Shown: positions 43,075 to 45,991 of the stretch, one piece after another
Position numbering within the stretch: the stretch's first letter is position 1
How the letters are laid out: every line of letters begins with the position of its first letter
Assembly: GCA_027489875.1 (NCBI GenBank)
Contig: JAIXZE010000368.1
Span: 1-53,570 of the forward strand
Length of the DNA stretch: 53,570 nucleotides
Source: Verrucomicrobiales bacterium
GTDB lineage: Bacteria; Verrucomicrobiota; Verrucomicrobiia; Limisphaerales; UBA9464
Direction of reading: 5' to 3'
Made by a program: the position numbers and the translations under genes
Notes under the pieces: generated by a model
The model's input: only the letters and a program-made list of their open reading frames with translations
Told to the model about the DNA's origin: nothing
The model's database searches: none

Positions 43075-45671
43075 GTCCGGCGGGCCGCGCCGCCTTGCCT
43101 GAGTTGCTGGCCCCGGCAGGCGACTGGGAGTGCGCGCGTGCGGCCGTGGAAAACGGTGCGGATGCCATTTACTTCGGTCTGGATCGGTTCAACGCCCGGA
43201 TGCGGGCGCACAACTTCACGGAGGCGGACCTACCCGCCCTGATGGAGTTCCTCCACCGCCGCGGAGTGCGTGGGTACGTGACGTTCAACACGTTGGTCTT
43301 CACCGACGAATTGCCGGCTGCTGCGGAATACCTCCGATCCATCATCGCTGCCGGGGTGGACGCGGCCATTGTGCAGGATGTGGGTATCTGTCGATTGATC
43401 CGGCGGCTTTCACCGGACTTTCCAATCCACGGTTCGACGCAGATGACGATCACGAGTCCGGCAGGCGTGGACTTCGCCCGTGATCTCGGATGCGAGTTGG
43501 TGGTGTTGGCTCGCGAGAACTCCCTGAAGGAGATCGCAGCCATCCAGGCCGCGCAGGCCGCTCGTGCGAATCTGGAACCGGAGCGTTCACCCCTGCCATT
43601 GGAGGTCTTCGTCCATGGTGCCCTGTGCGTGGCGTATTCCGGGCAATGCCTGACGAGCGAATCGTTGGGAGGGCGCAGCGCCAACCGTGGTGAATGTGCC
43701 CAGGCCTGCCGGATGCCGTATGACCTGATTTCGGATGGAAAGAAGGTGGAACTCGGCGACCGCAGATACCTGTTATCACCGCAGGATCTGGCGGGGTTGG
43801 ATGTGCTTCCGGACCTCGTTCGGGTCGGGGTTTCGTCGTTGAAGATCGAGGGGCGCCTGAAGACGCCCGAGTACGTCGCCGCGGTGACCCGAGTCTACCG
43901 GAAGGCTCTGGACCAGATCGCCATCGCAGGTGGGAACGAGGCTGGGTCTGCCGTTGATCCGGCGGGTTTCGATGCGCGGCGGGCGCGCTACGAACTGGAG
44001 ATGGGGTTCTCACGTGGCCTCTACACGGGATGGTTCCGTGGGGTGAACAACCAAGAGCTCGCGCATGCACGCTTTGGCAAGAAGCGCGGGGTTTATCTGG
44101 GGGAAATCGTTCGCCTCGAGCGCACGGGACTCCTGCTTCAACCGGCCGGACCCATCCAACCGGGCGATGGGGTGGTCTTCGACGGCGGACGCCCGGATCT
44201 GGATGAAGAAGGCGGTCGTGTCTTCGCGGTGCATCCGCGACCGGATGGTCGGGTGGTCCTCGAGTTTGGGCACGGAGACATCGATTGGAGCCGGGTCCAG
44301 GCCGGGCATTTCCTTTGGAAGACCAACGACCCGGCGCTCGACCGCGACCTTCGTCGGACCTTTGAAGGCGAGCAGATCCGACACACCCGGCCGATTGTCG
44401 TCGAGGTTCACGGACACGCGGGTGTCCCGATGACGTTGATCCTGCGTAGCCAGGATGGGCATGTCGTCCAGGTTGCTTCGGCGCTGCCATTGGCGGTCGC
44501 CGAGAAGGTGCCGATGTCGACCGAACGGCTCCGGGATCAGCTGGGGCGTCTCGGCGGAACACCGTTTCATCTCGGGGAGCTTCGGAATCACCTCGAGGGG
44601 GCCGTGATCCTCCCGATGAGCGAATTGAACCGCCTGCGCCGTGAGGCGGTGGCAGCCCTCGAAACCGCGCTGGCCCGTGGGCGTCGATGGACGCTCAACC
44701 CGGTGTCAGATCCCCTCGTCTGCGAAGTGCCCGCGCAGGGTGCATCGATCGACGATCCGGCCGGCATTGGAGCAGGGGTTGGCGCTACGGACGGGTTGAT
44801 CGCGCTCGTCCGGAACATGGCGCAGTTGGAGGCGGCGCTTCGATGCGGGGTTCAGACGCTGTATTGCGACTTTGAGGACCCGAAGAAGTTCCGGGAAGCG
44901 GTCCAGCGGGTTCGGCAATCCTGCGGATGCCGGGTCCCGGGTGTCTCGGTGTGGGTGGCTCCGCCGCGGGTGTACAAGCCTGGGGAGGAATGGATCCTGA
45001 GGATCGTGGAATCCGCCGATCCGGACGGCTATCTCGTGCGGAACGCGGAGCATCTGCGGGCCTTCGCTGGGAAACCAATGCGCGGGGACTTTTCCCTGAA
45101 CGTGGCGAACCCGCTCACGGCATCGCATTACATCTGCAATGCAGGACTGCAACGCATCACCCCCTCCTACGACCTCAATGTCGAGCAGTTGGAAGGGTTG
45201 TTGCGGGGCGCTCCGGCTTCGTGGTTTGAAGTGACCATCCACCAGCACATGCCGATGTTTCACATGGAGCATTGCGTGTTCTGCGCCTTCCTCTCGAAGG
45301 GAACCGACTACACCAACTGCGGTCGGCCGTGCGACAAGCATGAGGTCCGGTTGAAGGACCGGGTGGGAATGGAGCATCCGTTGAAGGCGGACGCCGGTTG
45401 CCGGAACACCGTGTTCAATGCGCGGGCGCAGACTGGGGCGGAGGCAGTGGCGCGATTCCAGGCGCTGGGAGTCAGGCACTTCCGTGTGGAATTCGTGGAT
45501 GAGACACCGGCGGAGGTGGAGCGGACGCTGGGCCGTTACCGGGCGCTCCTGCGCGGTGAGATCACCGGGGAGACCCTGTGGCGGGAGTTGAAATTGCAGA
45601 ACCAGATCGGCGTCACGCGGGGGCAGATGGATCAGGTCGAAGTTCGACGCGTGTTCCCGAAGGCCCGGTGA
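43071..45671 (+). CDS. U32 family protein with two cysteine-cluster modules (RlhA-like)
   Basis: 866 residues, longer than the usual 400-650. The N-terminal module starts LPELLAPAGDWECARAAVEN and has C186, C193, C208 and C212 (GRSANRGECAQAC), the U32 motif that binds a 4Fe-4S cluster. The C-terminal module has C735, C738, C750 and C754 (HCVFCAFLS, NCGRPC), a second probable cluster. The family includes RlhA (23S rRNA hydroxycytidine) and UbiU/UbiV (oxygen-independent ubiquinone hydroxylation), so RNA or quinone hydroxylation rather than proteolysis is likely. Which one is not decided. Start ATG at 43071 overlaps the previous stop. Confidence 0.87.
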   Translation: MSPAGRAALPELLAPAGDWECARAAVENGADAIYFGLDRFNARMRAHNFTEADLPALMEFLHRRGVRGYVTFNTLVFTDELPAAAEYLRSIIAAGVDAAIVQDVGICRLIRRLSPDFPIHGSTQMTITSPAGVDFARDLGCELVVLARENSLKEIAAIQAAQAARANLEPERSPLPLEVFVHGALCVAYSGQCLTSESLGGRSANRGECAQACRMPYDLISDGKKVELGDRRYLLSPQDLAGLDVLPDLVRVGVSSLKIEGRLKTPEYVAAVTRVYRKALDQIAIAGGNEAGSAVDPAGFDARRARYELEMGFSRGLYTGWFRGVNNQELAHARFGKKRGVYLGEIVRLERTGLLLQPAGPIQPGDGVVFDGGRPDLDEEGGRVFAVHPRPDGRVVLEFGHGDIDWSRVQAGHFLWKTNDPALDRDLRRTFEGEQIRHTRPIVVEVHGHAGVPMTLILRSQDGHVVQVASALPLAVAEKVPMSTERLRDQLGRLGGTPFHLGELRNHLEGAVILPMSELNRLRREAVAALETALARGRRWTLNPVSDPLVCEVPAQGASIDDPAGIGAGVGATDGLIALVRNMAQLEAALRCGVQTLYCDFEDPKKFREAVQRVRQSCGCRVPGVSVWVAPPRVYKPGEEWILRIVESADPDGYLVRNAEHLRAFAGKPMRGDFSLNVANPLTASHYICNAGLQRITPSYDLNVEQLEGLLRGAPASWFEVTIHQHMPMFHMEHCVFCAFLSKGTDYTNCGRPCDKHEVRLKDRVGMEHPLKADAGCRNTVFNARAQTGAEAVARFQALGVRHFRVEFVDETPAEVERTLGRYRALLRGEITGETLWRELKLQNQIGVTRGQMDQVEVRRVFPKAR

Positions 45672-45697
45672 CGGCTGGGCGAGGTGTGATCAATAAT
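45669..45697 (+). promoter_or_regulatory. Candidate promoter of the structured RNA
   Basis: TGACGG at 45669-45674 (overlapping the U32 stop codon), 17-base spacer, AATAAT at 45692-45697. The start would be about 45704. A GATAAT-like site is also seen at 45711-45716. Confidence 0.35.
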
Positions 45698-45703
45698 GGC
45701 CAC

Positions 45704-45991
45704 CGTGCCGGATAATGCCCGGGTGCGGTGGTCGGACTGGCCCACAAATGCCGGGGCTCAGTGGAGGGCGGCGGGGGAAACAAGGTTGGCATCCCTGATG
45801 CTTTCCACTGATCCGTGGAATCCCCCGAGACAGATTGGCAACAAGCTGACTTGGGTCCCTCCGCGCCGCCGCTCTGGCATGGCGCACAGGTCCTACCTGA
45901 ATCCTCGACCGCGGCTGGCGAACAGGCCTGACGCGTTGCTTCCTGAAAACTGGCCTGGCGGACTTCCACAGTCCGCCAGGTTTCTTCTTTT
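45704..45991 (+). ncRNA. Candidate structured non-coding RNA
   Basis: The 371-base gap from 45672 to 46042 has no plausible gene, but pairs extensively. From outside in: GTGCG (45723) with CGCAC (45883); ATGCCGG (45748) with CTGGCAT (45874); GTGGAGGG (45761) with CCCTCCGC (45857); GGGGG (45773) with CCCCC (45822). The last encloses two hairpins, GCATC-CCT-GATGC (45789-45801) and TTCCAC-TGATCC-GTGGAA (45803-45820), giving a multi-way junction. A small hairpin CAGGT-CCT-ACCTG follows at 45887-45899, then an intrinsic terminator. This is what a standing non-coding RNA looks like. tmRNA, RNase P, SRP and 6S signatures were not found. A 3' untranslated region of the U32 gene is the alternative. 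Confidence 0.5.
45954..45991 (+). terminator. Intrinsic terminator ending the structured RNA
   Basis: CCTGGCGGACT at 45954-45964, loop TCCAC, AGTCCGCCAGG at 45970-45980, then TTTCTTCTTTT. It is 282 bases after the U32 stop. Confidence 0.82.

Follow-up and report, generated by a model that had tools for sequence, protein, structure and literature searches.

The locus and its promoter

The stretch at issue, positions 45704-45991 (288 nt), is in contig JAIXZE010000368.1 of a Verrucomicrobiales bacterium (GCA_027489875.1), of which the 53,570 nt analysed are here termed the window. Upstream, on the same strand, is a gene for a U32 peptidase (a protease) whose stop is at 45671, and downstream is a convergent gene for a GFO/IDH/MocA oxidoreductase. 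A preliminary description had the whole 288 nt as a multi-branched RNA of no known family, without an ORF and ending in a terminator some 282 bases past the U32 stop. What is found instead is a conserved, covarying RNA of about 178 nt at 45813-45991, its boundaries predicted from alignments and good to a few bases. A structured RNA, its terminator and the lack of a known family thus stand from the earlier account; the extent, the fold and the absence of an ORF do not. The terminator is a strong intrinsic one, and the distance to it from the U32 stop is, as described, 281-282 bases (281 by the present count).

Table 1. Features predicted at the locus, in window coordinates
Feature	Position	Strand	Particulars
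Candidate enhancer site (weak)	45687..45702	+	TGATCAATAATGGCCA; Gibbs motif search of upstream regions
Sigma-54 promoter	45786..45801	+	TTGGCA-N8-GC; −24 TTGGCA 45786-45791, −12 TGC 45799-45801
RNA gene	45813..45991	+	about 178 nt; homologs in 35/50 family genomes and order-wide; covariation
Putative near-leaderless small ORF	45815..45931	+	VESPETDWQQADLGPSAPPLWHGAQVLPESSTAAGEQA*; GTG start at +3, 38 codons
Hairpin P1	45823..45855	+	A1 columns 11-16/44-49; double changes in 6/6 pairs
Hairpin P2	45863..45885	+	GCGCCGC / ATGGCGC; A1 columns 58-64/74-80; double changes in 6/7 pairs
C-rich linker P2-P3	45886..45909	+	unpaired in family consensus; candidate base-pairing region
Hairpin P3	45910..45935	+	A1 columns 105-114/121-130; double changes in 6/9 pairs
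Intrinsic terminator hairpin P4 and T-run	45952..45991	+	hairpin 45952-45982; consensus fold and covariation

The low folding energy of the entire stretch (−135.4 kcal/mol, z −3.55, 1/200 against shuffles) would suit a multibranched non-coding RNA starting at 45704. Conservation argues otherwise. BLASTN against 96 relatives gave homologs within the family and, at E values down to 1.7e-64, within the genus, and the best alignments of the same-genus homologs, at 82-85% identity, begin at query positions 120-127, equivalent to window 45779-45786; upstream of that point nothing aligns, even within the genus, either by BLASTN or in the alignment of relatives. It is because genus homologs align only from about 45779-45786, precisely at a sigma-54 promoter, that the RNA start is placed near 45813. 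As the promoter is inside the proposed fold, the upstream bases of that fold (its first 80 or so) are promoter and further upstream DNA, and the RNA proper would be four successive hairpins rather than a multi-branched structure. In the minimum-energy structure of the 288 nt, bases from above the promoter are paired to the RNA. An RNA of the full 288 nt can for practical purposes be discounted. The predicted +1, 45813, is 12 nt past the C of the −12 GC and directly before the next conserved block, GTGGAA.

The −24/−12 element of sigma-54 is GG-N10-GC, and the window box has this arrangement. All 22 aligned family sequences agree at T45787-A45791 and at the GC of 45800-45801, while the bases around and between them vary, and the genome also encodes RpoN (Sigma54_AID at 55 bits, above cut-off). 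Since the covariance models used to find homologs were built without the promoter, a box upstream of their matches is an independent test for one. Nearly all of the order-level matches to the promoter-free model have TGG(C/T)A-N7-TGCT about 12 bases ahead of the model start, and most of the matches to the second model have a sigma-54 box, those in G139 and G165 included. For L085 and L114/L116 a box appears once the displacement of the model start is allowed for (partly by eye). No recognisable box was found for two homologs within the order, L082 and G117; the G117 match was set aside, as were two from outside the order, in G618 and G416, that are also without a box. On this evidence an activator-dependent sigma-54 (RpoN) promoter is the predicted driver of the RNA.

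The presence of its own promoter argues against the transcript being only read-through from the U32 gene. As its predicted start comes 142 nt after the U32 stop, on the same strand, the RNA might be viewed as merely the 3′ end of that gene, or as a cis-regulatory leader of a neighbour. Such an origin is very improbable for a gene with promoter and terminator of its own, and its surroundings are inconstant: in many other families an hscB-like gene is upstream, in some an iscA-like one, elsewhere the neighbours differ (names by eye), and the next gene in the window is convergent. A constant role in cis is made unlikely by this change of neighbours between genomes. (The hscB-like gene, again by eye, is upstream at L065-L068, L071, L072, L098, L103 and L104, which is probably the ancestral neighbourhood.) The reading of 45786-45991 as a free-standing sigma-54 RNA gene is very probably correct.

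Hairpins and distribution of the RNA

Two alignments bear on the structure. A1, of 22 family sequences, was made with MAFFT without reference to structure, and A3, of 42 sequences from across the order, was fitted to the model and is hence biased towards it. In A1 there are four hairpins, and 21 of the 34 counted pairs have changed on both sides, with a covariation score of 0.430 against 0.180 for shuffled and at most 0.11 for slid controls. The corresponding score in A3 is 0.533 (0.208 shuffled, at most 0.11 slid), double changes being seen in 28 of 31 pairs with 92.4% of cells paired. The check for conservation and covariation in relatives that the preliminary description had called for thus came out clearly positive. 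Folded alone from its +1, the window RNA also forms successive hairpins (z −3.39), a fold that the covariation supports. The loop context of P3, GGCGAACAGGC, is almost invariant within the family; in the C-rich linker ahead of it CAGG and CCUG may pair locally in the window-only fold. Comparative analysis has this as a structured RNA with four conserved hairpins, of which the last is the predicted intrinsic terminator.

With the first covariance model the RNA was found in 35 of 50 family genomes, in one full copy each, the exceptions being G044, with a second match that is truncated, and G015, with one that is weak; some genera of the family (g2, g6) lack it. About 25 further genomes of the order matched, and a few of these were rejected. 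Those at L080 and L086-L089 were, because on visual inspection they cover the last part of an open coding frame with a terminator behind it. (In the f42 genomes among them, L080 and L086-L088, a similar GC-rich terminator after an S1-like frame, a ribosomal protein by eye, mimics the 3′ end of the RNA.) The second model extended the RNA to many further families of the order and gave only three weak matches outside it in the class sample and no match in a further 387 genomes sampled from the phylum. One RNA region is identical in G139, of the same order, and G365, of another (L129, L130), which suggests contamination of one of the assemblies. By these searches the RNA family is order-wide in the Verrucomicrobiota.

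That it resembles no known family was borne out when Rfam 15 was searched: neither the window nor 13 order-level loci matched at the gathering cut-off, and the sub-threshold matches of the window are chance-like. A literature search for the Verrucomicrobiota did not find such an RNA. Judged from both searches the family is new, and Rfam 15 has no entry for it. With 6S RNA (RF00013) it has in common being a stable structured RNA of under 200 nt, and identity with 6S RNA was rejected, as the window matches no Rfam model and the same genome has a separate near-threshold 6S candidate. The latter is on another contig (G000:C123:1070-1247, L031) and scores 45 bits against a cut-off of 46.4.

The start codon at the 5′ end

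Contrary to the absence of an ORF earlier described, a frame that starts with GTG occupies 45815-45931, and every non-redundant homolog has an open counterpart of it. Nearly all homologs have ATG or GTG at +2 to +4 (13 of 14 in the later set), the start codon of L114/L116 being further in, and from this codon the 35 non-redundant sequences have 27-66 open codons. In the first set all the sequences (22/22) keep frame 0 open over 27 codons or more, where shuffles gave a mean of 10.4 and a maximum of 17 (1000 runs) and the other frames 7 and 18; the second set has 13/13, with a shuffled mean of 5.1 and maximum of 12 (2000 runs), and 1 and 9 for the other frames. The first base of the start codon alternates between A and G among homologs, which keeps it a start codon. 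The BLOSUM score of substitutions favours frame 0 in every identity bin, and an in-frame 6-nt indel does so too, with permutation tests of codon substitutions giving a weak to moderate signal (p 0.045 and 0.11; combined z about 2.4). Translation from the 5′ start codon is likely on these comparisons.

A peptide of fixed sequence is another matter. The frame is shifted relative to P2 in L065-L068, L073 and L110, in the family members L039 and L044 a 1-nt insertion moves it, and in some homologs, such as L037, there is no stop ahead of the terminator (in most there is); from these three features it follows that no fixed peptide is conserved. From one family to another the peptides have little amino-acid sequence in common, in contrast to the strong covariation of the base pairs within the frame, and Pfam had no match for five of the peptides.

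Two one-sided accounts can be set against these data. In one, the RNA is a purely non-coding sigma-54 small RNA, with the 5′ RTG an RNA motif and the open frame due to a C-rich composition low in stops. RNA structure kept far better than any peptide accords with that, as do the shifts against P2 in several lineages, the L039/L044 insertion and the frequent openness of frame 2 (18/22 and 9/13); it leaves unexplained why frame 0 is open in 35/35 when about half would be expected, why the A/G switch preserves the start codon, and why both the 6-nt indel and the substitution scores favour frame 0, and we regard it as unlikely though well worth bearing in mind. In the other, the transcript is a leaderless sigma-54 mRNA for a small protein and its hairpins only stabilise or regulate that mRNA, with no action in trans. 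The position of the start codon, the openness of the frame, the moderate codon signal and, in most members, the stop before the terminator would all be expected of such an mRNA, and yet a peptide that diverges so far between families while the pairs within its frame covary so strongly, together with the five peptides lacking a Pfam match, makes it improbable.

Candidate upstream enhancer site and possible function

The candidate enhancer site of the window is a weak example of a family motif. Family relatives share a site TTGgnCAAAAnncGaCA; of 25 non-redundant regions, about half have it exactly 77 nt upstream of the box, and the Gibbs search gave the motif a log-likelihood ratio (LLR) of 384, against 248-260 in shuffles. 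Other families have at about −80 the dyad TTGTCY-N7-RGACAA, enriched at order level at a spacing of 7 (z 8.9), its half-sites occurring at 1.66 per region as against 0.53 (z 9.6, again at order level). In the window's family this dyad has diverged.

The dyad of the other families recurs, equally spaced, ahead of secretin genes under sigma-54 control. In four RNA-bearing genomes, G150, G154, G070 and G178, it matches at 12/12 or 11/12 at −78 to −81 of the sigma-54 boxes of genes whose products are, by Pfam, Secretin in G150, G154 and G178 and, for the incomplete frame of G070, Secretin_N only. At L144, L145, L148 and L149 perfect or near-perfect dyads are about 80 nt above sigma-54 boxes that are themselves 61-76 nt before secretin-type genes of genomes in the order. 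Prepilin genes also have sigma-54 boxes, with weaker dyads; L159 (G154) has two tandem prepilin-like genes, each with its own box. In G085 a pair of similar sigma-54 promoters, separated by about 2 kb, has repeated GGACA half-sites (L152, L164), and L164 precedes a transglutaminase-like frame. In the window's family no sigma-54 box was seen near secretin genes, and a pattern search for its site there gave the RNA and about five other places, none of them clearly a co-regulated gene. One activator for secretin and RNA outside the window's family appears to be the simplest reading.

This activator may be PilR-like, which is a guess on our part, the half-site of PilR presumably being TGTC. The sigma-54 regulon of PEP-CTERM, PrsK/PrsR, is similar in combining an enhancer motif with a −24/−12 box at a spacer of about 60 nt. 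PrsR was nevertheless rejected as the activator because its motif differs, ending in TTTACA (PMC1569441) where the present dyad is TTGTCY-N7-RGACAA; PrsK/PrsR was also not found in Verrucomicrobium (PMC1569441).

The start codon and the open frame behind it suggest a dual function, a sigma-54 small RNA acting in trans that also has a near-leaderless small ORF, a proposal on which the arguments for and against are about evenly balanced. An NtrC-family enhancer-binding protein would bind some 80 bp above the promoter and activate the gene when a signal is received; in families other than that of the window, a secretin gene that depends on sigma-54 (type II secretion or type IV pilus class) would be driven by this same protein. 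The C-rich stretches that are unpaired in the consensus could then pair with other mRNAs at their ribosome-binding sites, and ribosomes loading at the start codon of the 5′ end would produce a peptide of about 27-45 residues that evolves quickly. (Against shuffles, duplexes of the RNA with the leaders of the four co-regulated secretin mRNAs showed no consistent advantage.)

Elements of the dual-function proposal have counterparts elsewhere. Among sigma-54-dependent small RNAs, which we take to include Qrr, GlmY and CrcZ, the likeness is in being short and structured, in the predicted use of RpoN with an enhancer-binding protein and, for some families, in an apparent link to a surface-appendage regulon; the present RNA differs in its 5′-end start codon and in having no Rfam match. 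Small RNAs that also bear a short ORF, such as SgrS/SgrT, are known as dual-function RNAs. In these the comparison is again partial: here, with the start codon at +2 to +4, a ribosome-binding site would not fit, and the putative frame overlaps covarying hairpins, in both of which respects the RNA also differs from VcdRP, a dual-function small RNA (PMC8672173). An RpoN-dependent precedent is CJnc230/FlmE of Campylobacter, which is mainly processed from mRNA (PMC11187230), in contrast to an RNA with its own predicted sigma-54 promoter and terminator. CJnc230 (PMC11187230) and VcdRP (PMC8672173) are the precedents for the proposal.

Extended to the order, the dual-function proposal would make this a class of near-leaderless messages whose coding region is at the same time a covarying regulatory RNA, and which share their activator with a secretin gene; this is put forward tentatively. 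Through the shared enhancer dyad a connection to a surface or secretion regulon could be tested, and with a start codon at its 5′ end the family may be well suited to the study of RNAs that serve as regulator and leaderless message at once.
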